From: SAR86 cluster bacterium AG-447-A08
GTDB taxonomy: Bacteria > Pseudomonadota > Gammaproteobacteria > Magnimaribacterales > Magnimaribacteraceae
Length of the DNA: 64,000 bases
NCBI GenBank assembly: GCA_003212335.1
Contig: QCQA01000004.1
Span: 62,001 to 126,000 of the forward strand
Reading direction: 5' to 3'
Position 1 is the first letter of the stretch; each line of letters begins with the position of its first letter. The notes under the pieces were generated by a model. That model ran no database searches and was not told the origin of the DNA. It was given only the letters and a program-made list of their open reading frames with translations. This document shows, in pieces, positions 49,163 through 64,000 of the stretch. The position numbers were made by a program, and so were the translations under genes.

Positions 49163-51328
49163 ATGTCAGATCGAATTGAATACGGAAATTTACAGGTTGC
49201 CAAAGAGCTTGATAATTTTTTAAGAGAAGAAGTTGTGCCAGGTATTGATGTTGATCCTGATGATTTTTGGAAGTCATTTGAGAAAGTCCTTGAAGAGTTT
49301 GGTGCAAAGAATAAAGAACTTCTAGAGAAAAGAGAGACTATACAAAAGCAAATTGATGAATGGCATCTATCAAGAAAAGATGAAAACCATGATCACGAAG
49401 AATATGTAAACTTTCTTAAAGAAATAGGCTATCTACTGGATGAAGGAGAAGATTTTCAAATCACAACTCAAGATGTTGACGATGAGATCAAAAAGGTAGC
49501 GGGAGCTCAACTTGTAGTTCCTGTTATGAACGCAAGATTCTCTCTGAATGCAGCAAATGCAAGGTGGGGCAGTCTTTATGATGCCCTTTATGGCACTGAC
49601 ATGATCTCAGAAGAAGGAGGGGCAGAAAGGTCAGGTCCTTATAATCCAGTAAGAGGTGATAAAGTTATAGAGTTTTCGAAGAATTTTTTAGATGAAACGG
49701 TTCCATTATCAGCTGTCAGTTTTACAGAAGTTACAGGTTTTTCCATTGAAAATGGAAATCTAAAAGTTAATACAAGCGGTCAAACATCTGATGTCTTAAA
49801 AGATCAATCTCAATTTGTAGGTTATACAGGAGATTCTGATAGTCCATCAAGTATATTGTTGAAAAACAATAACTTACATATAGAAATTCAAATAGATGCT
49901 GAAGACTCAGTAGGAAAAGATGATCCTGCCAACATCAAAGATGTAGTGCTCGAGTCTGCTGTGACTACTATTCAGGATTTAGAAGATTCAGTTGCCGCTG
50001 TTGATGCTGAAGATAAGTCCTTAGCCTACAGAAACTGGTTGGGTTTAATGAGAGGTGATTTAAAGGAATCATTCATGAAAGGAGGAGAAGAAATGACTCG
50101 CTCTTTAAATGAAGATAGAACTTATTCTGATGTTGATGGTAATGAAATGACCCTTCCAGGTAGGAGTGTCCTTCTTGTAAGAAATGTAGGGCATTTAATG
50201 ACTAATCCAGCAATTTTAGATGGCAATGGCAATGAAGTTCCTGAAGGAATTATGGATGCAATGTTTACTATTTGTATCGGTAAACACGACCTTCAGAAAA
50301 AAGGGCATCTTGCTAATTCAAGAACTGGAAGCATATATATAGTTAAACCAAAAATGCATGGACCTGAAGAGGTTAAATTCACTTGCGATTTATTTGCTAG
50401 AGTTGAAGAAGAGCTTGGCCTGGAGCCCCTCACTGTGAAAGTAGGAATAATGGATGAGGAGAGACGAACTACAGTCAATCTTAAGGAATGTATAAGAGCA
50501 GCTAGCGATAGAGTTATTTTTATAAATACAGGATTTTTAGATAGAACTGGCGATGAAATTCATACCAGCATGGAGGCAGGGCCTGTAATACCTAAAGCAC
50601 AGATGAAACAACAGCCCTGGATAAGTGCTTATGAAGACTGGAATGTAGATGTCGGCCTTGAGACTGGCTTTAAAGGTAAGGCTCAAATAGGAAAAGGAAT
50701 GTGGGCTATGCCTGACGAAATGCTAGGAATGTATGAGAATAAATCTATGCACCCTGAAGCTGGAGCTAACTGTGCTTGGGTTCCTTCACCAACCGCAGCT
50801 ACCTTGCATGCAATCCATTATCATCAAGTTTCTGTTCCAGAGAGACAAGAAGAATTGATCTCAAGAACTAGAGCAGACTTGAAAGACATTTTATCTATAC
50901 CCTTATTAAAAGATCCTGAAAGTTTAACTCCTGAAGAAATCCAGGCTGAGCTAGATAATAATTGCCAAGGCATATTAGGTTATGTTGTTAGGTGGGTTGA
51001 TCTTGGGGTGGGCTGCTCGAAAGTTCCGGATATAAATAATGTCGGCCTTATGGAAGATAGAGCTACCTGTAGAATATCTAGTCAACATATCGCAAATTGG
51101 CTTCATCATGATCTCTGTACTGAAGATCAGGTTGTAGAGACAATGCGAAAGATGGCCTCTGTTGTAGATGAACAAAATGCTGGTGACCCTGAATATATAA
51201 ACATGGCTCCTAGTTTTGATGGTATAGCTTTTTCAGCTGCAGTAGATTTGGCTATCAAAGGAAGAACACAGCCTAGTGGATATACTGAACCTATTCTTCA
51301 TTCCAAAAGATTAGAGTTTAAAGCTTAA
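49163..51328 (+). CDS. glcB: Malate synthase G (GlcB)
   Basis: Condenses glyoxylate with acetyl-CoA to malate in the cytoplasm. It has 721 residues, matching the ~720-residue isoform G rather than the ~540-residue isoform A. Typical regions are [27 protein letters not shown] (in part [18 protein letters not shown]), [44 protein letters not shown] (core GIMDEERRT) and [17 protein letters not shown]. No isocitrate lyase gene is in the window, so the source of glyoxylate is not shown. Divergent from the fadB-like gene. Confidence 0.96.
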
Positions 51329-51341
51329 TATAAACTGCTAT

Positions 51342-51369
51342 TTGACCTTTCAAGTCTATTCTTTAGACT
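51342..51369 (+). promoter_or_regulatory. Possible promoter and overlapping inverted repeat
   Basis: TTGACC (51342-51347), 16 bases, TAGACT (51364-51369) resembles a sigma-70 promoter. The arms AGTCTA (51353-51358) and TAGACT (51364-51369) form an exact inverted repeat around five bases, which could be an operator or a weak hairpin. No T-run follows, so it is not a clear terminator. Gene start is at 51391. Confidence 0.35.
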
Positions 51370-51390
51370 AGAAGGGCAGTCGAGGTTTTT

Positions 51391-51909
51391 ATGAAGAAAG
51401 CGTTATTTTTGAGTTTCTTTTTATTTTCAAGTTCTCATTTTTTTGGAGAAGATACTTCTTTTAATTGTGATCCAAAGAAATTTTTAGCTGATGATGTACT
51501 TGAAAAAGTTTTGGTGCATAGAGACTCGGCTTTCAATATTTGTTTAGATTGTGAAGATCAGTCTTGTCGGTTTAAAGCCGCATTGCTTTCAGATGAAAAA
51601 AGCCTTTCGATATGTAAGCGACTTTTTTGTACGGCATCTTTTGCTAGCAGAGGATTTGAAATACCCCCCGAAACGCCCAGAGGTAAAAGTCTTTTTAGCT
51701 ACAAGTACTCTATTTCAAAGGAAGGTAAGGTTAAAAACATAAAAGTTGAGAGTACTGAAGGTGTCTTCTCATCTCGGGATGCAAGAGAATTTATCAAGGC
51801 TCTTACTAGAAAAACTAAATATGTACCAATAGAGTTCGAAGGGAATTACTATGAATTAACAAATTTAAAGTCTGAAATTTCAATCAATACAAGATTAGGA
51901 AACGATTAA
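51391..51909 (+). CDS. Hypothetical exported Cys-rich protein with TonB-C-like tail
   Basis: 172 residues. An N-terminal signal peptide of about 19 residues (FLSFFLFSSSHFFG) is followed by a region with seven Cys residues (e.g. CDPKKF, CLDCEDQSC, CKRLFC), suggesting disulfides or metal binding. The C-terminal half (YKYSISKEGKVKNIKVESTE ... KALTRKTKYVPIEFEG, in parts) resembles the TonB C-terminal domain pattern 'G.v.nv.v..s......aa...l....y.P'. No transmembrane anchor or proline-rich arm is present, so it is not a typical TonB. Good ribosome binding site is not clear. Function unknown. Confidence 0.65.
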   Translation: MKKALFLSFFLFSSSHFFGEDTSFNCDPKKFLADDVLEKVLVHRDSAFNICLDCEDQSCRFKAALLSDEKSLSICKRLFCTASFASRGFEIPPETPRGKSLFSYKYSISKEGKVKNIKVESTEGVFSSRDAREFIKALTRKTKYVPIEFEGNYYELTNLKSEISINTRLGND

Positions 51910-51911
51910 TT

Positions 51912-52199
51912 ATGAAAGGATATTGGATAACATTATGCAATGTGACTGACCCAGAAGGGTATGGAGAATATATTAAACTAGCTGGGCCCGCGATTGAAAA
52001 ATTTGGTGGTAGATTTTTGGCAAGAGGAGGTGATCAAATTAAATTTGAAGGTGATCCTTATGAAAGAACTGTAGTTGTAGAGTTTAACTCTTTACAGGAT
52101 GCACAAGATGCTTACAACTCAGAAGATTATAAAATCGCCTTAAAATATTCCTCCACTTCTTCTGAGAGACATGTTGTAGTTGTAGAAGGTCTTGATTAG
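51912..52199 (+). CDS. DUF1330 family protein
   Basis: 95-residue alpha/beta dimeric-fold protein. The family pattern is clear: GYWITLCNVTDPEGYGEYI at the start, FGGRFLARGGDQIKFEGDP in the middle (in part GGRFLARGG), and VVVEFNSLQDAQDAYNSEDY. DUF1330 members are small enzymes or stress-induced proteins of unclear function. It begins two bases after the preceding stop. Confidence 0.88.
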   Translation: MKGYWITLCNVTDPEGYGEYIKLAGPAIEKFGGRFLARGGDQIKFEGDPYERTVVVEFNSLQDAQDAYNSEDYKIALKYSSTSSERHVVVVEGLD

Positions 52200-52202
52200 A
52201 GG

Positions 52203-52955
52203 GTGGAAATCCTCAATTTATTCTTAGTTTGCTTGGCTGCATTTTTGGCAGGGAGTTTGAATTCCTTAGCAGGAGGAGGAAGTTTCATCACTCTTCCAGC
52301 ATTGTTATTTGTAGGTATACCTCCAGTATTAGCAAATACCACTAGTGCAGCGGTTCTTTTGCCAGGTTACTTGGGTTCTGTATTAGGATTTAAAAACACT
52401 TTCTCTACAATCGATTATAAAAAGCTACTACCCTTATTATTAATATCAATAATATGTTGTGTTGGGGGAGCGATTTCTCTTATTAAGACTTCTAATGAGT
52501 TCTTTTTAAAATTTATTCCCTTTTTAATTTTAATTGCAACATTAATGTTCATTATCAATCCTTCTTTAAATCAGACTCAATCTCCAACCTCCTCAGGCTT
52601 CTTAAGAAGTATTGGATTAGCTCTTGTGAGTACATATGGAGGATATTTTAACGGTGGTTTAGGCATAGCACTGCTATCAGTACTGTCATTGGGGAAAGAA
52701 TTTTCTTTGAAGCAGATGTCAGCGATTAAGTCTTTTCTTTCTTTTTTGATAACAACCGTCTCAGTAATCATTTTCTTCTTTAATGATTTTATTGTTTGGA
52801 GTTATGTTTTTTATATGGTTTTCTTTTCAATTATGGGCGGGTTTTTTGGCGCTAAATTAACAGAACTCTTACCCTCTCAATGGGTTAGGAGGTTTGTTAT
52901 TCTAGTTGGTTCTGTTTTAAGTTTTTCATTAATTTACACAAGTTACTTCAAATAA
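52203..52955 (+). CDS. TauE/SafE family membrane transporter
   Basis: Multi-helix anion exporter family (sulfite, sulfoacetate or other organic anions). 250 residues, start GTG at 52203, three bases after the DUF1330 gene. The repeat motifs are SLAGGGSFITLPALLF and, in the second half, TYGGYFNGGLGIALLSVLSL, both typical of TauE. About eight hydrophobic helices. The malonate-carrier genes follow one base later, so it may be part of the same transport unit. Confidence 0.85.
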   Translation: MEILNLFLVCLAAFLAGSLNSLAGGGSFITLPALLFVGIPPVLANTTSAAVLLPGYLGSVLGFKNTFSTIDYKKLLPLLLISIICCVGGAISLIKTSNEFFLKFIPFLILIATLMFIINPSLNQTQSPTSSGFLRSIGLALVSTYGGYFNGGLGIALLSVLSLGKEFSLKQMSAIKSFLSFLITTVSVIIFFFNDFIVWSYVFYMVFFSIMGGFFGAKLTELLPSQWVRRFVILVGSVLSFSLIYTSYFK

Positions 52956-52956
52956 T

Positions 52957-53316
52957 ATGGTCATTTACGGAATTGCTTTACTTGGAATTTGCACTCTTAT
53001 TGGTTTATTTGCTGGTCAGTTATTAGGTTCATGGTTTGGTATAGATGCAAATGTAGGAGGTATAGGGATAGCCATGCTTCTACTCATGTATTTTTCAAAT
53101 ACCTCTAACGCCCATTTCAAAATTGGAGATATGTCTGAGAAAGGTATTACCTTTTGGAGTATGATTTATATTCCCATCGTGGTTGCAATGGCGGCAAAGC
53201 AAAATGTAATAGGAGCAATTGATGGAGGCTTAATGGCTCTTTTAGCCGGTATATTTGCTGTTTCGGTTTCTTTTATCTTCATCCCCATCATTTCTAACTT
53301 TGAGAAAAATAAATGA
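52957..53316 (+). CDS. madL: Malonate transporter subunit MadL
   Basis: Membrane subunit of the sodium-dependent malonate carrier. It has 119 residues and four helices. The family sequence is recognisable: IYGIALLGICTLIGLFAGQ, GGIGIAMLLLMYFSN and AIDGGLMALLAG. It is followed by madM with a four-base overlap. In known systems (Malonomonas, Acinetobacter, Pseudomonas) MadL and MadM work together; here no mdc decarboxylase genes are adjacent. Confidence 0.88.
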   Translation: MVIYGIALLGICTLIGLFAGQLLGSWFGIDANVGGIGIAMLLLMYFSNTSNAHFKIGDMSEKGITFWSMIYIPIVVAMAAKQNVIGAIDGGLMALLAGIFAVSVSFIFIPIISNFEKNK

Positions 53317-54071
53317 ACAGTTTTGAAGATATTCTAATAACTAATAACTTAATTACAGCCTTTGTTTTTGTTGGTTTAACAGTTTATTTTGCTTATTTTA
53401 TTTCGGAAAAATTAACTAATGGACGTTTTCATGGATCAGCAGTAGCAATAATCTTAGGTTTAATTTTTGCTTACTTTGCTGGCACTCTTACCGGAGGAGA
53501 AAAAGGTGTAGCTGATATTGCCATATTATCCGGAGTAGGTATCTTAGGTGGATCTATGTTGCGAGATTTTGCTATTGTTGCAACAGCTTATGGCGCAAAC
53601 TTCAGTGATTTAAAGTCTTCAGGTAAAGCTGGAATTTTCTCTCTTTTTTTTGGTGTGATACTTTCATTTAGCTTAGGTGCCATAGTGGCAATAGCTTTTG
53701 GGTACGATGATCCAAAGGATATAACTACAATTGGGGCTGGAACAGTTACTTTTGTTGTAGGACCCGTTAGTGGCTCAGCAATTGGAGCCAGTAGCGAAGT
53801 TATAGCTCTGAGCATTGCTGCAGGTCTGGTCAAGTCTATTTTAGTAATGACTATGACTCCTTTATTTGCCAAACGAATTGGTTTGGATAATCCTAAGTCG
53901 GCCATGGTATTTGGAGGATTGATGGGTACTAACAGCGGTGTTGCTGCTGGATTAGCAGCCGTCGACCCTAAGCTGGTTCCCTATGGAGCTATGACAGCAA
54001 CCTTTTATACAGCTGTAGGATGTTTATTAGTACCTTCTGTATTATTTCTTTTAATTGATTTAATGTTCTAG
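53313..54071 (+). CDS. madM: Malonate transporter subunit MadM
   Basis: Large membrane subunit of the malonate carrier. It has 252 residues and about nine helices. Family-like segments are GSAVAIILGLIFAYFAG, GGSMLRDFAIVATAYGA, GPVSGSAIGASSEVIALSIA and VFGGLMGTNSGVAAGLAAVD. Coupled to madL by ATGA. With MatB at 37.6 kb it suggests uptake and activation of malonate, possibly for use as a malonyl-CoA source. Confidence 0.88.
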   Translation: MNSFEDILITNNLITAFVFVGLTVYFAYFISEKLTNGRFHGSAVAIILGLIFAYFAGTLTGGEKGVADIAILSGVGILGGSMLRDFAIVATAYGANFSDLKSSGKAGIFSLFFGVILSFSLGAIVAIAFGYDDPKDITTIGAGTVTFVVGPVSGSAIGASSEVIALSIAAGLVKSILVMTMTPLFAKRIGLDNPKSAMVFGGLMGTNSGVAAGLAAVDPKLVPYGAMTATFYTAVGCLLVPSVLFLLIDLMF

Positions 54072-54074
54072 TTT

Positions 54075-54395
54075 ATGAAAGCTAGCTCCTTTTTAATCTT
54101 ACCTTTGTTAATTTCTTGTGCTTCAGGAACTAACTTAATATCTACTATCGAAAAAGAAGATAACTTCTTCCTTTGTTTTCCAACTGCAAATAATTCTTAT
54201 TCTATGTTATCCATGGAAGAGAAAATTGAGATTCAAAAAAAGATTGCATTAGAAAAAGATAAGCGAAATCTCGACTGCAGTAAATTTACTAATTTACTCA
54301 GCGCAGAAGAAAATTTAAAAAACATTAATCAACAAGAGCTCGATAGAAGAATAAATAAATGTCGTTATCGTGGAGAACCTTGTCGTTATGAGTAA
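54075..54395 (+). CDS. Hypothetical lipoprotein, 106 residues
   Basis: Signal peptide MKASSFLILPLLISCASG with a lipobox-like LISC, so the mature protein would start at Cys15 and be anchored in the membrane. The rest is charged and helical with Lys/Glu (MEEKIEIQKKIALEKDKRN); the C-terminus CRYRGEPCRYE has two Cys. Unrecognised. Its 3' end overlaps the next gene by eight bases. Confidence 0.6.
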   Translation: MKASSFLILPLLISCASGTNLISTIEKEDNFFLCFPTANNSYSMLSMEEKIEIQKKIALEKDKRNLDCSKFTNLLSAEENLKNINQQELDRRINKCRYRGEPCRYE

Positions 54396-54723
54396 AAAAA
54401 ACATACTGATATTTTTATTTATGATTTCAATGCATTCAAAAGCAGAAATGATAAATTTAGAGTGTGCAACACAGAATAGCGATAGGAATGTTTCCTTCAA
54501 TTTATTATTAGGAACTGCAACAGGTAAGGCCGTTCAGATCCTGAAAAAAGGGCAGTTACGTATGGACCTTTCCGTCACTGACAAGTATTTTGATATTGGT
54601 CAGTACACTGATGCATCCCAACAAGAATTAATAAGCGTTATAAAAGTTAATAGAGATACGCTTGAGATTGAATACGCAAAATACATGGAATTAGTTGAGC
54701 CAATTTTATGCATAAAGTTATAA
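54388..54723 (+). CDS. Hypothetical small exported protein, 111 residues
   Basis: Start ATG 54388 gives a signal peptide (KKNILIFLFMISMHSKA, cleavage near SKA-E) followed by a compact beta-rich domain with two Cys (LECATQN and ILCIKL) that could pair. An upstream start would overlap the preceding gene by 26 bases. Unrecognised. Confidence 0.6.
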   Translation: MSKKNILIFLFMISMHSKAEMINLECATQNSDRNVSFNLLLGTATGKAVQILKKGQLRMDLSVTDKYFDIGQYTDASQQELISVIKVNRDTLEIEYAKYMELVEPILCIKL

Positions 54724-54732
54724 AATAGTACT

Positions 54733-54951
54733 ATGTTCTATTATTGTGTATCTCGAGACAAAGAGAATGAGAAAGTCTACCTGGTGAGTGACACTCAAGA
54801 AGATATAGATTCTCACTGTAAAGAAAATGACTTAGAGGTTTTAAGTCTTCCAAGATATGTTGAGCCTGCAATGGTAGCTCATCATTTTATATGGGTAGGA
54901 AAAGAGAAAAGGCCCGCAATATTAGAAATATCTAGACCTTATAAATACTAA
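54733..54951 (+). CDS. Hypothetical small protein, 72 residues
   Basis: Short, cytoplasmic-looking sequence: MFYYCVSRDKENEKVYLVSD start, no membrane segment, basic/acidic mix. Unrecognised. Its stop overlaps the stop of the opposite-strand gene by four bases (CTAA). The tight fit to neighbours and coding-like composition support a real gene. Confidence 0.5.
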   Translation: MFYYCVSRDKENEKVYLVSDTQEDIDSHCKENDLEVLSLPRYVEPAMVAHHFIWVGKEKRPAILEISRPYKY

Positions 54952-55292
54952 TTTATACTAGGTCGAGTTTTATGGCGAGCGGAGGAGGGCATGCCTCTCT
55001 CAATTTCATCAAGTATATCTAAGACATGAGATCTAGAGTCTAACCCAAAGTAATTACATCTATCTTTAAATAAACTGAGAACTCTGTAGAGATACCTATA
55101 TATAAGTTCTGAATTAATTTTCATTTCTCTCTCAGCTTCAATTAAAACTCTGAATTTATCTATAAATTCCATCGATTGTTTGATGTTGAGAATCCTTTCA
55201 TCTCTTTGAGCTGTTTCAGTTAACTCTCTTTTCCTGTATAACGCGATTAGTCTAATCTCTTCCTCTGTGAGCTCAAATCTTTGTTTAATCAT
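54948..55292 (-). CDS. Hypothetical helical protein, 114 residues
   Basis: All-helical, charged protein (RFELTEEEIRLIALYRKREL at the start; KINSELIYRYLYRVLSLFKD). No signal peptide or membrane helix. One Cys. Unrecognised; could be a small regulator or a coiled-coil protein. A strong Fur-box-like site lies 24-42 bases upstream of its start (55316-55334), so it may be iron-regulated together with the divergent ahpC. Confidence 0.55.
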   Translation of the reverse strand: MIKQRFELTEEEIRLIALYRKRELTETAQRDERILNIKQSMEFIDKFRVLIEAEREMKINSELIYRYLYRVLSLFKDRCNYFGLDSRSHVLDILDEIERGMPSSARHKTRPSIN

Positions 55293-55315
55293 AAGATTTA
55301 TATTAATTTTTAATT

Positions 55316-55334
55316 ATTAATGAGAATCATTATC
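55316..55334 (+). promoter_or_regulatory. Fur box 1 (divergent gene side)
   Basis: The 19-base site ATTAATGAGAATCATTATC matches the Fur consensus GATAATGATAATCATTATC at 16 of 19 positions by my alignment. It lies upstream of the minus-strand gene ending its 5' end at 55292 and 6 bases before Fur box 2. Confidence 0.75.
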
Positions 55335-55339
55335 AAGTT

Positions 55340-55358
55340 AGTAATGATAATCATTATC
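55340..55358 (+). promoter_or_regulatory. Fur box 2 (ahpC side)
   Basis: AGTAATGATAATCATTATC matches the 19-base Fur consensus at 17 of 19 positions. A TATAAT (55362-55367) begins four bases later, so the box covers the -35/-10 spacer of the likely ahpC promoter and would block it when Fur is iron-loaded. Confidence 0.82.
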
Positions 55359-55361
55359 ATC

Positions 55362-55367
55362 TATAAT
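55362..55367 (+). promoter_or_regulatory. -10 element of ahpC
   Basis: Perfect TATAAT, 33 bases before the ahpC ATG (55401). The -35 position falls in Fur box 2 (TTAGTA or TAGTAA). Confidence 0.6.
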
Positions 55368-55400
55368 TCAAGAATATTATTTATATTTAAGGAGAAAACT

Positions 55401-55949
55401 ATGATCGGAATAGGAGAGAAATTGCCAGAGTTTAAACTTGTTTCTGTAAAACCAGGATTTAATGACCCTGAAGAATCTGGAGAATCTGCTTTTGAAGAAT
55501 TCTCTGATTCAAGTTTTAGCGGTAAGTGGAAAGTGATTTATTTTTATCCTAAGGATTTTACGTTTATATGCCCTACAGAAATTATTGAATTTGCTTCGAT
55601 AAATGATGAGCTAGAGAAAAAAGACTGTGTTTTAATCGGAGGAAGTACTGATAATGAGTTTTGTAAGCTTGCATGGAGAAGAGAGCACCCGGGACTGAAT
55701 AAATTGAATCATAGAAGTTTTGCTGACCCTCAAGGTAAATTAACACAGGAATTAGGTCTTATGTCTGATGAAGGAGTTGCATACAGAGCTACTTTAATTG
55801 TCGATACTGACAATGTAGTACAACATATTTGCGTGAATGCACTAGATACTGGGAGAAATCCGCAAGAGACCTTAAGAACATTGGAATCATTACAAGCAGG
55901 AGGACTAACTGCGTGTAATTGGAAACCTGGCCAAGAACTATTGGGTTAA
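55401..55949 (+). CDS. ahpC: Alkyl hydroperoxide reductase/peroxiredoxin AhpC
   Basis: Thiol peroxidase that reduces hydrogen peroxide and organic peroxides. It has 182 residues. Start ATG 55401 was chosen because AGGAGA lies five to ten bases upstream and because the upstream in-frame start would put the Fur boxes inside the gene. Peroxidatic Cys57 is in DFTFICPTE and resolving Cys172 in TACNWKPG; an Arg near SMQAGGL... is not assigned. The sequence resembles the mycobacterial AhpC type rather than E. coli AhpC (no AhpF adjacent). Fur boxes directly upstream predict derepression on iron limitation. A P19-like protein gene follows after nine bases. Confidence 0.92.
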   Translation: MIGIGEKLPEFKLVSVKPGFNDPEESGESAFEEFSDSSFSGKWKVIYFYPKDFTFICPTEIIEFASINDELEKKDCVLIGGSTDNEFCKLAWRREHPGLNKLNHRSFADPQGKLTQELGLMSDEGVAYRATLIVDTDNVVQHICVNALDTGRNPQETLRTLESLQAGGLTACNWKPGQELLG

Positions 55950-55958
55950 AATGAAGGT

Positions 55959-56504
55959 ATGCAGAAGCGTTTTACTTTTGTCTTATTATTGATTGCGTCT
56001 TTGAATGTCTTCGGAGGATTACCGGAGATGATATTTGGAAAAGCTAAGATTGAACCGGGAATTAACCTGATATTTGAAGGAGCAATTAAAGATGACGTTT
56101 TTCCTCCCGCTAAATTTGGTTCTGCAGGAGACTCCGATATTCATCTTGAAGTCCTTGCTAATTGGAATGAAGATGCCCCAAGTGGTGCTCCCGAGGGAGG
56201 TTTTGTTGCTTATTTGAGAATTACGGCAGTGATTACTAACCAAGAAACTACGCAAACTAAATCAGTAGAACTCCTTCCGCATATTAATATGTCCGACAAT
56301 TTGCATTATGCTCTCAATGTAAAGTTACCGGGAAAGAGATCTGATACTTACGCCATCAAGTTTGCAGTGAGTCCGCCAAGAAGTTACGATCTGGGTTTGC
56401 ACTATGACTGGAGTGAAGAAGTTGGTTCTTATTTGATCAAGAGTCACGAATTTGAATATAAGAACTTAGATTTCTTTGAGATGTCAAACTCATCAAGAAG
56501 GTAA
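55959..56504 (+). CDS. P19/Tp34-like periplasmic iron/copper-binding protein (PF10634-type)
   Basis: Exported 181-residue protein with an N-terminal signal peptide (about 1-19). The family motifs are visible in divergent form: SDIHLEVLANWN (like 'ADIHLEADI'), FVAYLRITAVITNQ (like 'PYL.I.Y.ltn'), MSDNLHYALNVKL (like 'SDGPHYG.NV') and GLHYDWSEEVG (like 'rH.D.eTGV'). Candidate metal ligands are His62, Glu64, Met111 or His108, His116 and His148. P19/FetP proteins serve high-affinity iron uptake and work with FTR1-type permeases, which are not in this window. Same operon as Fur-regulated ahpC. Homology is by eye and moderate. Confidence 0.72.
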   Translation: MQKRFTFVLLLIASLNVFGGLPEMIFGKAKIEPGINLIFEGAIKDDVFPPAKFGSAGDSDIHLEVLANWNEDAPSGAPEGGFVAYLRITAVITNQETTQTKSVELLPHINMSDNLHYALNVKLPGKRSDTYAIKFAVSPPRSYDLGLHYDWSEEVGSYLIKSHEFEYKNLDFFEMSNSSRR

Positions 56505-57503
56505 CTAGTCAGTACTGATAACCACTTTACCAATTAACTTTCTTTCAGAGAGGTAGTGAATAGCTTCTTTTGCTTCATTTAAATTGAATACCTTACATAT
56601 ATAAGGATCAAAATAACCCGATTCGCAGATCTCTCTTATTGCTTCGTTATTTTCTTTTCCAGCTAAAGGATTTTTACGTCCATATTCTCCTGCACGCACT
56701 CCTATTACTGAAAATCCCTTAATAAGGGCCATATTTACTGGAAGGGTGGGGATTCTTCCACTTGCGAAACCAACTATCAACAATCTTCCACCCCAATTTA
56801 TACATCTGATTGAGTGATCAAAAACATCACCCCCCACAGGATCATAGATAACATCAGCTCCTTTTCCGTCAGTAAGATCTTTAACCTCTTCTCTAAATTC
56901 AACCTTACCTTCTTTATGGGTTACTATCGTATGATCTGCTCCCCAAGATTTAGTGTGCTTTAATTTCTCTTCTGATGTTCCAGTAGCGATAACCTTTGCA
57001 CCGAGGTATTTTCCTAATTGCACTGCTGCCATACCAACACCCCCTGTCGAGCCATGTACCAGTAGTGTCTCACCTTTAGTCAGTTCTCCTCTTCTAACAA
57101 GCGAGACATAGGCAGTTAAGTAGGCGGTTTGAAAAGCCGCTGCTTGTTCAAAGGTTAAGTTGGAAGGTTTTATCTGAACTGCTCGTTCGTCCAAAACAAC
57201 ATAATCAGAAAATGCTCCCTGACCAATTGCTCCAAAGGTTATCTCATCATTAGCTTTAAATTTAGTTATCTCTTCCCCGGTCTCTTCAATAATCCCAGAT
57301 CCTTCCATACCCAAACCAAATGGAAGTTCTGGTTTATGTTGATATTTTCCTTGAGTCATGAGGTAGTCAGGAAAATTTACAGAGCTAGCTTTAACTTTGA
57401 TCAGGATCTCTTTCGGTCCTAATTCAGGGATGTCTTTTTCGATCAGTTTGACCCCAGACATGTCCTCACTTAAAAATTCACACTGGAGACTTCTTGACTT
57501 CAT
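56505..57503 (-). CDS. Zinc-independent NADPH:quinone reductase-type alcohol dehydrogenase (MDR)
   Basis: Medium-chain dehydrogenase of the QOR/crotonyl-CoA-reductase-like group, 332 residues. The GroES-like domain has FPDYLMTQGKYQHKPELPFG (in part SSVNFPDYLMTQG) and GMEGSGII; the Rossmann part has LVHGSTGGVGMAAVQLGK. No catalytic zinc Cys/His set is seen. Substrates could be quinones or enoyl compounds. Its stop directly abuts the P19-like stop on the other strand; it follows the GST gene after four bases on the same strand, so both may form a detoxification unit. Confidence 0.88.
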   Translation of the reverse strand: MKSRSLQCEFLSEDMSGVKLIEKDIPELGPKEILIKVKASSVNFPDYLMTQGKYQHKPELPFGLGMEGSGIIEETGEEITKFKANDEITFGAIGQGAFSDYVVLDERAVQIKPSNLTFEQAAAFQTAYLTAYVSLVRRGELTKGETLLVHGSTGGVGMAAVQLGKYLGAKVIATGTSEEKLKHTKSWGADHTIVTHKEGKVEFREEVKDLTDGKGADVIYDPVGGDVFDHSIRCINWGGRLLIVGFASGRIPTLPVNMALIKGFSVIGVRAGEYGRKNPLAGKENNEAIREICESGYFDPYICKVFNLNEAKEAIHYLSERKLIGKVVISTD

Positions 57504-57507
57504 TTTT

Positions 57508-58155
57508 TTATTTTAGCTCTTCTGGTCCAGATGGTCCTGGACCGTCGTATTTATACTCAATGACTTTTTTAAATGCCTCTCTCTCAAACAACATATCAGT
57601 CCATCTTTTAATATTGGGTTTAAATGCTTGCTCGATCCCCAATGTACCAGCTAAATAGATTGCATAACTTACGCATATGTCTGCAATTGTGAATCTATTC
57701 GAGCAAAGATACTCTCTATCATTTAATGTTGCTTCTAGTAATTTAAGTCTGGCTACAAACCATCTTTTATAACCCTCTGCTGCTGCATCAGCGACACCTG
57801 GTTCTTGTAATGTATACCTGATAAAGACTGTTTGAGGAAACGTTAGAGTTGCATCAGCATGTGTTAACCAGTTCAAGTAAGCTCCATAATCCTCTTCATC
57901 AACATTTACCTTCAGGTCTGTTGGGCCGTATTTATCCACTAGGTATTGGCTGATACCAACTGACTCAGTCATTTTAGTATTGCCATCAATCATACAGGGA
58001 ATTGTTCCTAGGATATTTACTTCTAAATATTCAGGTTTTAAGAACCTAGGAGGAAAAGGCATCATTTCTATTTCGTAATCTAGACCCATTTCTTCTGCAG
58101 TCCAGATGGGCCTTACACCTCTTGAACCTTCAGTACTGTAAATCTTAATTGTCAT
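57508..58155 (-). CDS. Glutathione S-transferase family protein
   Basis: 215 residues. The N-terminal thioredoxin-like domain includes IYSTEGSRGVRPIWTAEEMG, a PRFLKPEYLEVNILGTIPCMIDG segment with the conserved cis-Pro (in part NILGTIPCMID) and MTESVGISQYLVDKYG. The C-terminal helical domain has FTIADICVSYAIYLAG, the usual N-capping box. Conjugates electrophiles to glutathione or acts as a relative. Same strand and 4 bases upstream of the quinone reductase. Confidence 0.9.
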   Translation of the reverse strand: MTIKIYSTEGSRGVRPIWTAEEMGLDYEIEMMPFPPRFLKPEYLEVNILGTIPCMIDGNTKMTESVGISQYLVDKYGPTDLKVNVDEEDYGAYLNWLTHADATLTFPQTVFIRYTLQEPGVADAAAEGYKRWFVARLKLLEATLNDREYLCSNRFTIADICVSYAIYLAGTLGIEQAFKPNIKRWTDMLFEREAFKKVIEYKYDGPGPSGPEELK

Positions 58156-58200
58156 AATTTTCCTCTTAAATTTTGACGTTATATTAAAGAAAAAAATGAA

Positions 58201-58223
58201 AAAAGGGGCATTAAGCCCCTTTT
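58201..58223 (-). terminator. Rho-independent terminator (bidirectional)
   Basis: AAAAGGGGC (58201-58209) and GCCCCTTTT (58215-58223) form a perfect stem around ATTAA, with further T on both strands' 3' sides. It lies between the 5' end of the GST gene and the 3' end of the membrane protein gene at 58241-58669, so it ends the latter's transcript. Confidence 0.88.
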
Positions 58224-58240
58224 TCTCTTGCTTAATTAAA

Positions 58241-58669
58241 CTACTTTTTTGTCATCCAAGTTTGGCTAAGTTGAATTACTAAAATTGATCCAAGAAATAG
58301 CCCTTGAACAAGATTAGGCATCATAGTGAATGGCGCAGCCGGATCTGAAGCATCTAAATGCATTTGTGCATTAGGACTAATAGAAGTCCCTGCTTGACTA
58401 AGTTCACTAAATGCATTCGCAACTCCATTCATATGCCATTCCATATAACCCCACCAAATTAACAAGAACCATGCAACGCATAAGTTAAATACAGTAACAG
58501 CTATTTTAGCAACTATATTTGTTTCTCCAGAGTTATATATACCGTTGGATAATCTAAACCCGACCCATACAGCAAATATTGACATTGCCAAAGATATCAC
58601 AAGGGCAGTCATTGCTATCCAGTGAATGGACCAGATTTGTAGCTCCATATCAGTAAACGAAATTTCCAT
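58241..58669 (-). CDS. Small three-helix membrane protein, paralogue A
   Basis: 142 residues; helices at about 15-40, 53-75 and 116-136. Unrecognised. It is paralogous to the protein at 58786-59193: IWSIHWIA/VWSLFWLA, WVGFRLSN/WVSFRAAN, MNGVANAF/SNGIAGVF and the final TWMTKK/IWMKK align along the whole length with a one-residue gap. Trp-rich, with a short periplasmic or cytoplasmic loop at 80-115. The ribosome binding site GGAGAG precedes the ATG by about seven bases. It is divergent from its paralogue across a 116-base gap and ended by a strong terminator, so it is a single-gene transcript. Confidence 0.75.
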   Translation of the reverse strand: MEISFTDMELQIWSIHWIAMTALVISLAMSIFAVWVGFRLSNGIYNSGETNIVAKIAVTVFNLCVAWFLLIWWGYMEWHMNGVANAFSELSQAGTSISPNAQMHLDASDPAAPFTMMPNLVQGLFLGSILVIQLSQTWMTKK

Positions 58670-58745
58670 TTTTTTCTCTCCAATTATTAAAAAAAAGTAA
58701 TAAGTATTTCACGATAAATTAACTTAAATGCTTTATTATGTAAAT

Positions 58746-58758
58746 GAGAATTATTCTC
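58746..58758 (+). promoter_or_regulatory. Fur-like palindrome upstream of paralogue B
   Basis: GAGAATTATTCTC, an inverted repeat of GAGAAT/ATTCTC around one base, resembling the core of Fur boxes; 14 of 19 positions match the Fur consensus in the wider alignment (58740-58758). TATTAT at 58734-58739 could be the -10 just before it. It begins 40 bases upstream of the start at 58786. Confidence 0.5.
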
Positions 58759-58785
58759 GTTTTTTTAATTACACAGGAGATGGAT

Positions 58786-59193
58786 ATGCCTACAGAAATA
58801 GAAGTATGGAGTTTATTTTGGTTAGCAACTTTAGCAAATGCAGCTTATTTTGTTGGATTAGCGTTTTTATTATGGGTTAGCTTTAGAGCAGCAAATATGG
58901 CCGGAGAATCTGAAAATCTTTTAGGAAAGATAGTAGTTTCTATATTTTGCCTAATAATAGTTTTTAACATTAACTTAAATGCTGGTGCAGCTGAATGGGT
59001 TAGCAATGGTATAGCTGGAGTTTTTGCTTCTATGCAAAATCAAGGAGCTGAAATTAGTCAAGGAGCTCAAGAATTTATTGCAAATGCAGCTGAACCAGGA
59101 GCAGCATTTAATCTTGTTCCAGATGCATTAGGCGCATTGTTTTTAATCTGCATTGTTTTTATGCAAATGTTTAATATTTGGATGAAAAAATAA
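58786..59193 (+). CDS. Small three-helix membrane protein, paralogue B
   Basis: 135 residues from ATG 58786, chosen because AGGAG ends six bases upstream; a start at 58744 would lie inside the Fur-like palindrome. Helices at about 8-35, 46-66 and 112-130. Paralogue of the divergent protein at 58241-58669 with the same motif order (VWSLFWLA, WVSFRAAN, NGIAGVF, PDALGALF, IWMKK). No known domain. The exported-protein gene begins two bases after its stop, so B and that protein are probably co-expressed. Confidence 0.75.
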   Translation: MPTEIEVWSLFWLATLANAAYFVGLAFLLWVSFRAANMAGESENLLGKIVVSIFCLIIVFNINLNAGAAEWVSNGIAGVFASMQNQGAEISQGAQEFIANAAEPGAAFNLVPDALGALFLICIVFMQMFNIWMKK

Positions 59194-59194
59194 T

Positions 59195-59938
59195 ATGAAA
59201 GAAATATTAATTCTATTATTAACATTTTCTGCCTTCTTAAGCGCGCAAGAATATGAATTTGAACCTATTCCAAATAAAGCTGAATATTATTCAGGTAATT
59301 TCAATAAAGGTAAGGATATGAGTGACCTTTATGATTGGGCTGAGAAGTTTGTAGCATGGACTGAAGATAGAGGTGATCTTTGGAGTGAGATGGAGACAGT
59401 TATTTTTACTCCTTATTACTCAAATGACCTGCAGCAAACAGATTTTGTTTGGTTAAATCTCCATCCTAATTCGACCTCTCAATACAGAACTGTAGAGAAT
59501 TGGGCCAAAGAAGGAGGAAAGATTTTTAGCACGATACCAATCACTAACTCTAGGGTAACAGAAGTTTGGCAATGGCCAGTTTCTACTCCTGATGGAGAAA
59601 TTTCAGATATGGGTTTTGTGCGCTTTACAGATTGTAAATTAAAAGAAGGCGTTACTATGAGAGAGGCTTTTGATGCTTACAAAAAGTTTGCCATAAAAGC
59701 TAAATCAACAGGCGATACCATGGGTCGTAAGATGATTATGTCTCCAGTAGGCGCTGGAAATATTGATTTTGATTATGTGTATTCTCTTTATGCGAATTCG
59801 CCAAGTGAATACGGAAAAAACGTTGATAACTTTGGCTTAAATTTAAGAGGTACTCCAGAAGCGGAGGCGCTTAATAGTATTTCAGAATGTGGCAACGGAA
59901 GAAGCTACACAACAGTTCGGGTAAAAGAAGCTAAGTAA
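59195..59938 (+). CDS. Hypothetical exported protein, 247 residues
   Basis: Signal peptide of about 17 residues (ILILLLTFSAFLSA, cleavage near SA-Q). The mature part is Trp/Tyr-rich and of mixed alpha/beta appearance, with two Cys (FTDCKLKEG and SECGNGRS) that could form a disulfide. Unrecognised; dimeric alpha-beta-barrel-like repeats are possible (VWLNLHPNSTSQYRTVEN ... MGFVRFTDCKLKEG). It follows paralogue B after one base and is closed by a strong terminator at 59941-59967. Confidence 0.7.
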   Translation: MKEILILLLTFSAFLSAQEYEFEPIPNKAEYYSGNFNKGKDMSDLYDWAEKFVAWTEDRGDLWSEMETVIFTPYYSNDLQQTDFVWLNLHPNSTSQYRTVENWAKEGGKIFSTIPITNSRVTEVWQWPVSTPDGEISDMGFVRFTDCKLKEGVTMREAFDAYKKFAIKAKSTGDTMGRKMIMSPVGAGNIDFDYVYSLYANSPSEYGKNVDNFGLNLRGTPEAEALNSISECGNGRSYTTVRVKEAK

Positions 59939-59940
59939 TG

Positions 59941-59967
59941 AAAAAGGGGTCTAAAGACCCCTTTTTT
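59941..59967 (+). terminator. Rho-independent terminator (bidirectional)
   Basis: GGGGTC (59946-59951) and GACCCC (59956-59961) form a stem around TAAA, extended by A5 before and T6 after. It closes the paralogue B transcript and, on the other strand, the PhoD-like gene. Confidence 0.9.
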
Positions 59968-60964
59968 AAATCTTAACCGAAAGAATTTCTTTTCCATCTA
60001 TATCTTTAAGGAAAACCGAGATTTGATCCTGTTCAAATCTGATAACCCCATAATTTTCTTGGGAATACATTTCTCCTTGAAGTAGATCATCACTCTCTTT
60101 GCCTAAGAAATCCCATAAAAATGCTATAGGTTTAGAAATGGGTTTATTCATCGAAGAAGAGGTTATTTCAATTATATCTCCATCTTTATAGAATCCAGCT
60201 TTGTGCCTATCTCCAGATAGAAGAATAACTGGCTTATCCTTTGATTTAAGTAAATTCAAAAGTTTTATTCTTTCGTGTGGAAAGTTATGCCATTTCTCAA
60301 ATCCATGATTTTTTGGAAGTATCTGAATTGAGGAAACGACAATAATTAAATCACTTTCTTCGTTTAGAGTCTCTTCAAGCCATTTCCATTGAGCTTCACC
60401 TAAGATAGTTTTGGTTTTATCCTGAGTTGGAGAATAAGGTTTATCTGCCTGATCTAGGAAAGAACGATGATATCTTGTATCTAAAGCAATTAGGTTTATT
60501 GTTCTTCCAAATATCTCTTTCTCTTCACTGAAATATATTCCTTCTCTCAGATGCCTTGGGTCGTCTTTAGCCACATTCCAAAATTCTAAAAACATTGCCT
60601 GCGCTTCTTGCTTTAAAGGGTATTCAAATCCTCCATCATTTTTTCCATAATCATGATCGTCCCAAATAGCATTGAGTTTTTTGCTAAAAACCCAATCAGG
60701 AAACATATTTTTTTGCTTTTTATAAGATTCTTTCATCTCTATAAGAAGGCCATCATCAGAATCTCCATAAACGTTATCTCCCATAAAAAAGAATTCATCT
60801 ATATTTTCTTCTTTAATAGCCTTCCAAATTGGCTGTTCTCTTTTTTCAGTTATACACGAACCAAATCCTATCGTGTAAGTTTGATGAGAAGCTTCTGCTT
60901 CGAGAAAGGCCGGCGGAAGCATCAATACAACAATAGATATAACTTTAATAATTAGATTAACCAT
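59966..60964 (-). CDS. PhoD-like/alkaline phosphatase D family metallophosphoesterase
   Basis: Exported phosphatase or phosphodiesterase, 332 residues, with a signal peptide of about 25 residues (VISIVVLMLPPAFLEAEA). PhoD-family motifs are FGSCITEKREQPIW, FFFMGDNVYGD, AIWDDHDYGKNDGG and the C-terminal LLSGDRHKAGFYK. It may release phosphate from organic esters or phospholipids. Divergent from the prolyl oligopeptidase gene, about 50 bases apart. Confidence 0.9.
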   Translation of the reverse strand: MVNLIIKVISIVVLMLPPAFLEAEASHQTYTIGFGSCITEKREQPIWKAIKEENIDEFFFMGDNVYGDSDDGLLIEMKESYKKQKNMFPDWVFSKKLNAIWDDHDYGKNDGGFEYPLKQEAQAMFLEFWNVAKDDPRHLREGIYFSEEKEIFGRTINLIALDTRYHRSFLDQADKPYSPTQDKTKTILGEAQWKWLEETLNEESDLIIVVSSIQILPKNHGFEKWHNFPHERIKLLNLLKSKDKPVILLSGDRHKAGFYKDGDIIEITSSSMNKPISKPIAFLWDFLGKESDDLLQGEMYSQENYGVIRFEQDQISVFLKDIDGKEILSVKI

Positions 60965-61015
60965 AGAATTTATGAACTTTATTTGATTTATACTAAGTAT
61001 ATTAAAAAGGGGATT

Positions 61016-63115
61016 ATGTTGATAAGACTAATTAAAATATGTTTTCTTATCTTGCTCACAGGCTGCACATCAGAAACTATTGAAATGAAATATCCAGAGA
61101 CAAAAAAAGAAGATATCCAAGATCTTATTTTTGGAAAATATATCAATGATCCTTATCGTTGGTTAGAAGACTTCACTAGTAAAGAGGCTACGGATTGGGT
61201 AGATAGACAAAACAAATTAACCGACGCCTTCTTAGAGAACGAATACCAAAGAAAAATTAAGGAAGATCTTAAAGATATTTGGATTACAGAAGATATAAGC
61301 ATTCCATTCAGAAGAGGGGATAGAACGTTTTATTATTACGATAACGGCAAGCAACAACAGTCAGTCTTTATGATGAAAGATTGCAATAGTTGTGAAGCAG
61401 AGGTTTTATTAGATCCAAATCAGTTTTCTACAGATGGCACTATTTCTTTATCAGATATTAGCGTAAGTCCCAATGGAGAATATCTTGCCTATGCAATATC
61501 TGATGGCGGTTCAGATTGGAGAACATGGAAAGTTTTTAATATAAAAGAGAAACGTGACACAGATGATGTAATTGAATGGTCTAAATTTTCTTATGCGACC
61601 TGGGAATCAGACAGCTCTGGATTTTATTATCAAAAATATCAGCAACCCGATGAAGCTCTCTCTGATATAAATAAAAGTCCACAATTATTTTTTCATAGAC
61701 TTGGTGATGAGCAGGGTAAAGATAAATTAATCTACGAAGATAAAGAAAATCCTGACTTCTCATGGTCTATAAGCGTTCCCGAAAAAGGACGTTATCGAGT
61801 TTTATCGATAGGTGAAGGCACCGATGAAAGAAACTTTCTTTCTATCAGCCTAGATGAATCTCTAAATTTCGTACCGTTAATAGATAAATTTGAAGCCACT
61901 TATAGATTTTTAGGAGGTAATGAGGATACTTTGTGGTTTTTTTCCAACTTGAATTCTCCTAATGGCAAGATACTTTCTTTAAAAATTAATGATGGTAATT
62001 TCATTTGGGATGAGATTGTAGCTGAAAAAGAATTCCCCATTTCAGGAGCTTCTGTTGCAGGGGATAAATTGATCATCAATTATCTTGTTGACACTATATC
62101 AAAAGTTGAATTCTTTGATTTAGAGGGAAACTTTATAGAAGAGCTTATGTTTACAGGTGAAGGTACTTTGTCAGGTTTTTACGGAAAACTTGGAAATAAG
62201 GTTTCTTATTTCGAATTTTCAAATTTCACAACCCCTCAAAGTATTTATGAATTAGATTTAGAAACCATAAGCTATAAACCCTATTGGCAAACAGAAATTA
62301 AAGGCCTGAATATCAAAGATTATGCTGGTAGGTTAGATTTTTATAAATCTAAAGATGGCACCAGTATCCCAATACATATCTCGTATAGAAAAGATTTAGA
62401 GATTACTTCACAAACTCCTGTTCTGTTATATGGGTATGGCGGTTTCAATATACCGATCTTACCTTATTTCAGTAAGACGTTTTATATGTGGATTAAATCT
62501 GGAGGAGTTTTGGCTGTTGCAAATCTAAGAGGGGGATCTGAGTATGGTGATAGATGGCACCAAGAAGGCATGCTTCTGAATAAACAAAATGTCTTTGATG
62601 ATTTTGCCTACGGAGCAAAGTACCTTCACTCTCTAAACATTGGTTCTCCTGAAACAACTACCTCTCTTGGAAGATCGAATGGTGGTCTATTAGTTGCAGC
62701 CACTATGCTTCAATATCCAGAATTATTTAAAGTAGCAATCCCTCAAGTAGGTGTATTAGATATGTTGAGATTCCATAAATTTACTATCGGTTGGGCTTGG
62801 GAAAGTGATTATGGAGAGCCTGACAATCAAGAGGATTTTAACTATCTATTAAATTATTCTCCGTATCACAATATTAAAGAAGAGATTTGTTATCCAACTA
62901 CCTTGATAACAACTTCTTCAAGAGATGATCGAGTTGTTCCGGCTCATTCGTATAAATTTGCAGCTAGATTACAGGAGCTACAGTCTTGCTCTAATCCAAT
63001 ACTTCTTAGAGTTGAATCAAGAGCAGGGCACGGAGCAGGAACTTCAAAGGACAAACAAATTGATGAGATTGCTGATATATTTGGTTATGCACTTCAGGCA
63101 ATAAAAGGTAATTAA
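61016..63115 (+). CDS. Prolyl oligopeptidase family (S9A) lipoprotein
   Basis: Serine peptidase cleaving proline-containing oligopeptides. It has 699 residues from ATG 61016, chosen because AAAAGGGG is just upstream and it yields a lipoprotein signal (ILLTGC, lipobox Leu-Leu-Thr-Gly-Cys, Cys17). The N-terminal beta-propeller spans about 80-440, and the catalytic alpha/beta hydrolase domain 440-699 has Ser554 in GRSNGG, Asp637 or Asp638 in SSRDDRVVPAHS and His672 in RAGHGAG. A membrane-anchored periplasmic protease, it fits scavenging of peptides with the M20 enzyme. Confidence 0.93.
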   Translation: MLIRLIKICFLILLTGCTSETIEMKYPETKKEDIQDLIFGKYINDPYRWLEDFTSKEATDWVDRQNKLTDAFLENEYQRKIKEDLKDIWITEDISIPFRRGDRTFYYYDNGKQQQSVFMMKDCNSCEAEVLLDPNQFSTDGTISLSDISVSPNGEYLAYAISDGGSDWRTWKVFNIKEKRDTDDVIEWSKFSYATWESDSSGFYYQKYQQPDEALSDINKSPQLFFHRLGDEQGKDKLIYEDKENPDFSWSISVPEKGRYRVLSIGEGTDERNFLSISLDESLNFVPLIDKFEATYRFLGGNEDTLWFFSNLNSPNGKILSLKINDGNFIWDEIVAEKEFPISGASVAGDKLIINYLVDTISKVEFFDLEGNFIEELMFTGEGTLSGFYGKLGNKVSYFEFSNFTTPQSIYELDLETISYKPYWQTEIKGLNIKDYAGRLDFYKSKDGTSIPIHISYRKDLEITSQTPVLLYGYGGFNIPILPYFSKTFYMWIKSGGVLAVANLRGGSEYGDRWHQEGMLLNKQNVFDDFAYGAKYLHSLNIGSPETTTSLGRSNGGLLVAATMLQYPELFKVAIPQVGVLDMLRFHKFTIGWAWESDYGEPDNQEDFNYLLNYSPYHNIKEEICYPTTLITTSSRDDRVVPAHSYKFAARLQELQSCSNPILLRVESRAGHGAGTSKDKQIDEIADIFGYALQAIKGN

Positions 63116-63116
63116 C

Positions 63117-64000
63117 ATGGCAAAGATTCATGAAATAGATGGTTGGATAGATAGAGTAAAAGAAGAAATAATTGATCCACAAAGGGAAATAATTGATCCT
63201 CATCATCATCTTTGGCATGGTCCTGAAAACCCACCTGGTATTAAAGAGAGTTATAGATATCTTTTAGAAGATTTATGGAACGATACTTGTAGCGGTCATA
63301 ATATAAAAAAAACTGTTTTTATTGATTGTGGTCAGGAATATTATTCAGAAGGTCCTGACCGATTTAAGCCTGTGGGTGAAACTGAATTTGTGGTTGAGAT
63401 TGCCAAGCAGGCTCAAGAAGATTTATCAAAAGCGCAGATTAGCGGAATAGTAGGGCACGCTAACATGATGTTAGGTACCTCTGTAAATGAAGTGCTAGAA
63501 ATGCATATTGAAAAAGGTGATGGCTTGTTTAGAGGTATTCGTCATGCAGGAGGATGGGATGAAGACGAGAGGGTTAAGAATGCCCACTCTCATCCAACAC
63601 CTCATATTTATTTGGAGGATGAATTTCAAAAAGGGCTAGAAGAATTAGCCTCTTTAAATTTGGTTTTTGATACTTGGCATTACCACAACCAAATTAAGGA
63701 CTTAACTACCTTAGCAAAAAATTTACCTGAACTAGTTATCATTCATGATCACTTTGGTGGTCCCTTAGGAATTGGTCCATATAAAAACAAGAGAGAAGAG
63801 ATATTTGAAATATGGAAAGAGGATATTGTTGATCTGAGCCAGTGTCCTAATGTCTATTCAAAATTAGGAGGATTAGCAATGCCTGTTAATGGTTGGGATT
63901 GGCATAAGAGAGAATTACCTGCAACTTCAGATGAAATACTTCTAGAACAGAGTAGATACTATCTTCATACATTAGAGTGCTTTGGATCAGAAAGATGTAT
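63117..64000 (+). CDS. Amidohydrolase-2 family protein (3' end outside window)
   Basis: TIM-barrel metal-dependent hydrolase/decarboxylase family. 294 codons are visible, open to base 64000, so the C-terminus lies beyond the window. Metal motif DPHHHLWHG is near residue 27, and later motifs include GIVGHANMM, RGIRHAGGWDE, IIHDHFGGPLG and YSKLGGLAMP. It begins one base after the prolyl oligopeptidase stop. Relatives include lactonases and 2-pyrone-4,6-dicarboxylate hydrolase; substrate unknown. Confidence 0.88.
   Translation, partial: MAKIHEIDGWIDRVKEEIIDPQREIIDPHHHLWHGPENPPGIKESYRYLLEDLWNDTCSGHNIKKTVFIDCGQEYYSEGPDRFKPVGETEFVVEIAKQAQEDLSKAQISGIVGHANMMLGTSVNEVLEMHIEKGDGLFRGIRHAGGWDEDERVKNAHSHPTPHIYLEDEFQKGLEELASLNLVFDTWHYHNQIKDLTTLAKNLPELVIIHDHFGGPLGIGPYKNKREEIFEIWKEDIVDLSQCPNVYSKLGGLAMPVNGWDWHKRELPATSDEILLEQSRYYLHTLECFGSERC

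Follow-up and report, generated by a model that had tools for sequence, protein, structure and literature searches.

SAR86 bacteria rank among the most abundant microbes in sunlit ocean waters. The 64,000-nucleotide stretch of the genome of SAR86 cluster bacterium AG-447-A08 examined here (its full length is referred to as the window) contains near its right end two divergent genes for related membrane proteins (A and B) followed by a gene for a protein predicted to be exported (C). The question raised by this locus is whether these three genes constitute a unit and, if so, what the unit does. Our analysis confirms that they form an insulated three-gene module, which is conserved in part of SAR86 and is, to judge from its promoter sequences, probably regulated by iron in that part. 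These features point to a membrane response to iron shortage that has gone unrecognised; the chances are about even that, in two SAR86 families, the module is a Fur-repressed iron-starvation envelope system consisting of an inner-membrane protein of the A/B type and a barrel-type partner protein. None of the publications listed by literature searches deals with this module.

Organization of the module

The list of open reading frames (ORFs) for the window, together with folding calculations, places A on the minus strand and B and C on the plus strand, bracketed by two strong hairpins. Protein A (58241..58669, minus strand; 142 residues) is a predicted three-helix inner-membrane protein, identified from the ORF list, its homology to B and the family alignment. 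Protein B (58786..59193, plus strand; 135 residues) has predicted helices at residues 4-40, 45-85, 92-100 and 114-132; the ORF list also holds an alternative upstream start for it at 58744, and the aligned relatives of B begin at 58786. Protein C (59195..59938, plus strand; 247 residues) is predicted to contain two tandem ferredoxin-like domains of the dimeric alpha+beta barrel type. A and B diverge from a common region of 116 base pairs (bp), and the ATG of C follows the stop codon of B after a 1-bp gap.

The left hairpin (58199..58225) lies 3' of A and separates it from a gene for a GST, whereas the right one (59939..59968) lies between the convergent genes for C and a PhoD-like phosphatase, both neighbours being identified by a Pfam scan. 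A further gene to the left of A is presumably of the zinc-dehydrogenase/quinone-reductase type, and the member of the same gene cluster at locus L065 matches ADH_zinc_N. The folding energies of the two hairpins, whichever strand is taken, are -15.5 to -18.2 kcal/mol (z -3.3 to -4.7), in agreement with the description in an earlier note on this DNA of two strong bidirectional terminators around three genes. A consensus terminator scanner listed the left hairpin and missed the right one, whose T-run belongs to its stem. The further statement that these are the only two terminators in the window is roughly right, as terminator-like matches are at or below the shuffle expectation in three of its four stretches (9 vs 11.5, 12 vs 13.0 and 2 vs 6.5). 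However, they exceed it in the stretch 50000-64000 (18 vs 8.6), and another stem with 5 G-C pairs is present at 57523, inside the GST gene. A promoter scanner returned fewer sites than in shuffled sequences for all four stretches, and its output was not used.

A and B belong to an unrecognised membrane protein family

Since A retrieves B in its own genome with 33% identity (E value 1.2e-19) over residues 8-141, the two proteins are true paralogues by sequence, as was claimed earlier from their full-length alignment. The three-helix membrane family that they represent is named MEM here. The structure model of B, which has a predicted local distance difference test score (pLDDT) of 92.1 and a predicted template modelling score (pTM) of 0.81, consists of a long two-helix hairpin, then a short helix and then a final membrane helix. 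In the family alignment, as seen by eye, the N terminus is acidic and basic residues are found at the C terminus and between helices 1 and 2. Because of this charge distribution, the N terminus is predicted to lie outside and the C terminus inside, and the loop of about 28 residues (86-113) that carries the short helix and leads from helix 2 to the last membrane helix is predicted to be periplasmic. In the MEM profile (A1, 47 members) just two columns, W132 and K48, reach 90% conservation, and hence a near-invariant His, Cys or Met that could hold a metal or haem is lacking in MEM.

The view that A and B stand outside known families holds for all libraries searched, as Pfam, NCBIfam and PDB searches gave no family for MEM. 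In a Pfam scan of the 47 members no profile was shared by several of them, each family listed (25 of 26) matching one member, and neither anthrone oxygenase DUF1772 nor MotA/ExbB, which were considered as candidates, gave a shared match. Structure comparisons (Foldseek, VIA) matched only common bundles and are uninformative on relationship, and PHROG matches were at chance level. A viral origin was rejected, as a search of IMG/VR with A2 found no relative and phage records had no match to B; plasmid records had no match to the Rhodoferax MEM described below.

Distribution of MEM and conservation of the module

MEM is present in 145 of the 203 genomes of the SAR86 order (profile A1), in up to four copies each; of the 40 order genomes with a completeness of 90% or more, 35 have it. 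The family to which the window belongs has it in 16 of 35 genomes, 14 of the 19 in the window's genus among them, with one genome (G006) carrying it at a different site. Outside the order it is rare: among the matches listed for three samples that overlap in part, MEM was found in 4/369 genomes of the class, all four of the SAR86 order, in 1/398 genomes of the phylum, which is the window's own, and in 1/399 genomes of the Rhodoferax family, which is the query genome itself, the other 398 being without it. By sequence, MEM is thus an order-level family. Strict confinement to SAR86 is ruled out by three metagenome-assembled genomes of the order Burkholderiales, viz. L102 (from Lake Baikal, according to its title) and L103, both Rhodoferax, and L104 (Comamonas), whose MEM proteins show 31-33% identity to B. 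Upstream of the Rhodoferax MEM pair in L103 (L103:202-3080) are two ORFs, presumably transposase-like, which may hint at transfer. At another locus (L069:7679-9371) MEM adjoins a heavy-metal-associated domain protein, a MerT-like protein (below cut-off) and a metal-sensitive repressor (PF02583).

The neighbourhood of A, B and C is conserved in relatives at the place that we call site I, where, in 15 genomes inclusive of the window, MEM lies beside the GST gene and, as a rule, beside C and PhoD. C adjoins MEM in 14 of the 15, the exception being G018. The MEM content of site I varies: it can be A with B, either of them alone, a third type (G013) or a set of three copies (G033), which fits the suggestion in the earlier note that A and B are alternative or paired subunits. 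In the MEM tree the nine B copies form one clade (100/99), and the A copies are split into a pair (100/100) and a cluster of six (95/80). These A and B groups lie together inside a larger set of 17 rows that has weak support, and the third type groups with copies from the family designated f3 (98/90). From their sequences, A and B are read as old alternatives rather than as products of a recent duplication.

A Fur-type palindrome recurs in the promoter region

The palindrome TGAGAATTATTCTCG (58745..58759) in the shared A/B promoter region lies 26 bp before the ATG of B and 75 bp from that of A, and it is one mismatch away from TGAGAATNATTCTCA, a Fur motif of the 7-1-7 type. As the window contains three matches with at most two mismatches against 1.2 expected, this box is weak when taken alone and its weight comes from its recurrence in relatives. 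The Fur-like palindrome noticed earlier near B does recur, with 0-2 mismatches, in 10 of the 15 site-I promoter regions (window included): there are zero mismatches in G018, G003, G007, G004, G033 and G002, one in the window, G015 and G012, and two in G013. When each region was shuffled 300 times (mononucleotide shuffles), at most one shuffle equalled the real box in each of these ten regions, whereas in the five boxless regions 12-62% of the shuffles did as well. Within the ten matching regions, a set selected on that very match, pairwise identity is 87% for the box and 36 and 38% for its 30-bp flanks.

The box was also sought beyond site I, in neighbourhood loci that were picked by hand from the best-scoring matches listed and are not a random sample. 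One of the 89 loci (L081) is the same place as L094 and was left out of the pairing and box counts; L166 (a repeat of L115) and L167 (a filler stretch of 10 bases) were not used. The window and the genomes with A only (G005, G008, G011, G012 and G017) are part of the scan of 15 regions and stand outside the pairing and box-versus-control counts, in which loci were assigned to genomes by hand. A box precedes 26 of 90 MEM units; among the other genes at these loci with 40 bp or more of space upstream, it precedes 8 of 253 (Fisher p 1.2e-10, a value that overstates the significance since the rows are related and divergent pairs can count twice). The eight control-gene boxes fall in four intergenic regions, two of which are in the peroxiredoxin/iron-transport region. 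By family, the box is found before 10/13 MEM units in f3, 3/58 in f2, 0/3 in f4 and 0/1 in Burkholderiales, and before 13/15 in f1, a figure that flatters our interpretation, as neither the window nor any of the five A-only genomes, of which four are boxless, is in it and divergent pairs are partly counted twice; the 10 of 15 obtained by genome is the fairer one for f1. As the box is frequent in f1 and f3 and rare in f2 and f4, iron control, if real, would be a partly kept trait of f1 and f3 and would not be common to all MEM genes.

About 3 kb away in the window, at 55321-55359, two boxes of the same type (TGAGAATCATTATCA and the perfect TGATAATCATTATCA) lie just upstream of genes for an AhpC/TSA peroxiredoxin and a PF10634 iron-transport protein, and they are likely to serve as a positive control. 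Perfect boxes precede genes of the peroxiredoxin/PF10634 type at L095 and L097 as well.

Protein C and barrel-type proteins next to MEM

The N terminus of C appears signal-like by eye, and the protein is predicted to be exported. In its structure model, two beta-alpha-beta-beta-alpha-beta repeats are seen in the order of secondary structure. On this prediction, which is of low confidence, C would consist of two ferredoxin-like repeats that together make a pseudo-dimeric alpha+beta barrel and leave a pocket. According to structure matches, this fold is common to putative monooxygenases and other small-molecule enzymes and to haem proteins. The C family has two invariant cysteines (25 sequences) and no invariant His in alignments of 8 or of 25 sequences; neither C nor 25 members of its family had a NIPSNAP or ABM match in Pfam. 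Two other exported families, D and E, may share the fold of C. Hints of ABM were seen in 2/12 sequences of D (best E value 0.14) and of NIPSNAP in 4/9 of family E (best E value 0.025), while the profiles of C, D and E retrieved no barrel protein from the sequences of solved structures. The profile comparison of C with its relative C' gave 82.8% (E value 9.4e-6).

A partner was counted where a protein of the C family (profile A8), D (A6) or E (A7) was present within two genes of MEM. By this rule partners occur at 41 of the 85 SAR86 places examined; the three Burkholderiales places, which bring the MEM places to 88 in all, have no C-family, D or E match. The label 'V cox/QOR' in this count had mixed seven site-I loci with 14 f3 loci, because both hold the zinc-dehydrogenase/quinone-reductase-type gene, and after they were split by hand, C is found at 8 of the 9 site-I loci counted (14/15 in the genome-wise count). 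At two other loci the spacing of MEM and partner is tight as well, with a 4-bp overlap of MEM and C' at L066 and a 1-bp overlap of MEM and D at L072. In Burkholderiales, MEM follows a NIPSNAP-like protein in L102 (E value 5e-4, 20.6 bits against a cut-off of 22.3) and a DUF6854-like protein in L104 (E value 5e-5, 24 bits against 27), and the gene beside MEM in L103 is by eye near-identical to the NIPSNAP-like gene of L102.

Eight genomes have 2-7 C-family, D or E matches each. Tandem C-family arrays away from the MEM site are present in G005:C1:1030952-1034747 (five matches) and in the window's own genome (G000:C15:19409-21188; two matches and a fragment). The C family was found in 4/274 genomes of the class, one of them (G226) outside the SAR86 order (G226:C16:70219-70929, E value 2.5e-32), and it is thus not strictly of SAR86. 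The D gene of L067 is followed by one (L067:10202-10630) for a small cupin-like protein that is probably exported (Cupin_2, E value 6.6e-4, below cut-off); the cluster of this protein adjoins D at most site-III places.

Interpretation and alternative explanations

If the module is an iron-starvation system of the kind proposed above, then in the presence of iron Fur-Fe(II) would occupy 58745-58759 in the shared 116-bp region and keep B-C, and probably also A, switched off. When iron is lacking, A and B would be inserted into the membrane, where they could replace each other or mix as subunits, with C docking at their periplasmic face. C could then bind or chemically modify a small hydrophobic or aromatic molecule, for which a catechol, a quinone or a siderophore fragment would suit the fold and the neighbouring genes, with MEM either anchoring C or carrying the molecule through the membrane. 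This last step is the weakest part of the scheme and is inferred. A ligand of the catechol, quinone or chelator type is our guess because haem is unlikely, because quinone-reductase-type, GST and peroxiredoxin genes are near, and because the order is reported to be rich in siderophore receptors. Iron-siderophore receptors are stressed across the SAR86 order in published work (PMC11582366), in whose main text the word Fur does not occur. A wider reading, in which interchangeable MEM subunits carry varied extracytoplasmic tandem barrel proteins that release, modify or recycle catechol/quinone-type iron chelators, is rather unlikely. It also supposes that such a pairing, there with a cytoplasmic barrel, passed between SAR86 and Burkholderiales in one direction or the other; if true, SAR86 would have an iron-starvation envelope machine of a kind not known before.

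Several observations weigh against the proposed system. The model of C is of low confidence (pLDDT 58.5), C has no detectable homology to D or E in profile comparisons, and the barrel fold of D and E rests on weak Pfam hints at a level where unrelated families score equally. A recognised barrel partner is absent from 44 of the 85 SAR86 MEM places, including all 14 in f3, and G018 keeps A and B without C. The Burkholderiales partners have no signal peptide by eye and would thus sit on the other side of the membrane, which argues against one fixed geometry. No box with 0-2 mismatches is found in 5 of the 15 site-I regions (G017, G011, G008, G005 and G026), and it is absent from 55/58 MEM units in f2, 3/3 in f4 and 1/1 in Burkholderiales. 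MEM is thinly present in the window's family, 19 of its 35 genomes having no match, although many assemblies are incomplete.

The alternative that deserves most attention, though it appears rather unlikely to us, is that MEM acts alone, as an accessory or an assembly/scaffold subunit of the respiratory chain during iron shortage, and that barrel proteins are mere frequent neighbours. The f3 loci (L062-L065, L108-L117) speak for it: runs of one to four divergent MEM genes lie there beside or within two genes of SCO1, SURF1, CtaA and UbiA-type (CtaB-like) genes (the full gene set was run against Pfam for L065 only), with the box before most MEM units and no recognised partner, and the lack of near-invariant metal or haem ligands in MEM would also suit such a role. 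However, MEM has barrel-type neighbours at several unrelated sites and NIPSNAP/DUF6854-like ones in Burkholderiales, the MEM-partner spacing is tight in three cases, the neighbours seen at sites I to IV are not cox genes, and one to four divergent paralogues per genome would be unusual for a fixed oxidase subunit. The cox-linked runs of f3 nonetheless lend a respiratory role some probability. The haem A genes near MEM in f3, the box at the module and the top Foldseek matches of C, which are HemQ/coproheme decarboxylase chains (E values 1.7e-4 to 1e-3), would likewise agree with C being a haem enzyme of the chlorite dismutase, coproheme decarboxylase or DyP type in a module handling haem iron. 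This we consider very improbable, because the C family has no conserved proximal His in either of its alignments.

It is also improbable that the palindrome is bound by a different regulator and that the module answers to a signal other than iron: the Fur assignment is made from sequence, but the palindrome corresponds to the Fur 7-1-7 motif, and the same motif precedes the peroxiredoxin/PF10634 iron-transport genes nearby and in two relatives. We give equally little credence to an ordinary cluster of fast-evolving orphan envelope genes without a common role. The presence, copy number and type of MEM vary greatly, and it is missing from 5 of the 40 near-complete order genomes and from more than half of the window's family, which is what such a cluster would show. 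However, the synteny is conserved, the box recurs in promoter regions that otherwise differ, and the pairing is repeated. The earlier proposal of an abundant, iron- or stress-responsive membrane complex of A and B is thus upheld in part, viz. in the insulation of the module, the paralogy, the recurring palindrome and the conserved neighbourhood. To it are now added the two-domain alpha+beta-barrel prediction for C, the order-level MEM family and the repeated barrel-type neighbours elsewhere. A Fur-type box marking the orphan MEM family in two SAR86 families could provide an iron-stress marker for metatranscriptomes and names a concrete gene set for study. MEM, which often occurs together with a partner fold, is itself not represented in the family libraries that were searched.

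Comparison with known systems

For MEM, the most frequent NCBIfam hint is the ABZJ_00895 family (NF038216), seen in 3/47 members (best E value 0.0037), with B far below the cut-off (15.8 vs 33 bits); two other NCBIfam families match two members each. In its modelled fold, C resembles two-domain dimeric alpha+beta barrel proteins in the PDB, viz. 2pgc (a marine metagenome protein), 3gn6 (CT0912), 3f44 and 3mcs (putative monooxygenases), 5f9p (anthrone oxidase-like) and 9kdp (PenE), with 7-12% identity and none of them retrieved by sequence. Unlike these proteins, C appears by eye to be exported and its family has two invariant cysteines. The modelled two-domain fold and the size of C are also similar overall to those of HemQ/coproheme decarboxylase and chlorite dismutase, from which it differs in having no conserved haem His. 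NIPSNAP (PF07978), DUF6854 (PF21614) and ABM (PF03992) give weak profile matches in the MEM-adjacent proteins of L102 and L104, which are below the curated cut-offs, and in D and E, at E values of 0.025 or worse, whereas C has no match. Lastly, A, B and C differ from the P19/PF10634 iron-uptake operons, which are presumably Fur-regulated, in having no PF10634 match and in not being known iron carriers, but the type of box and the neighbourhood are the same in both.
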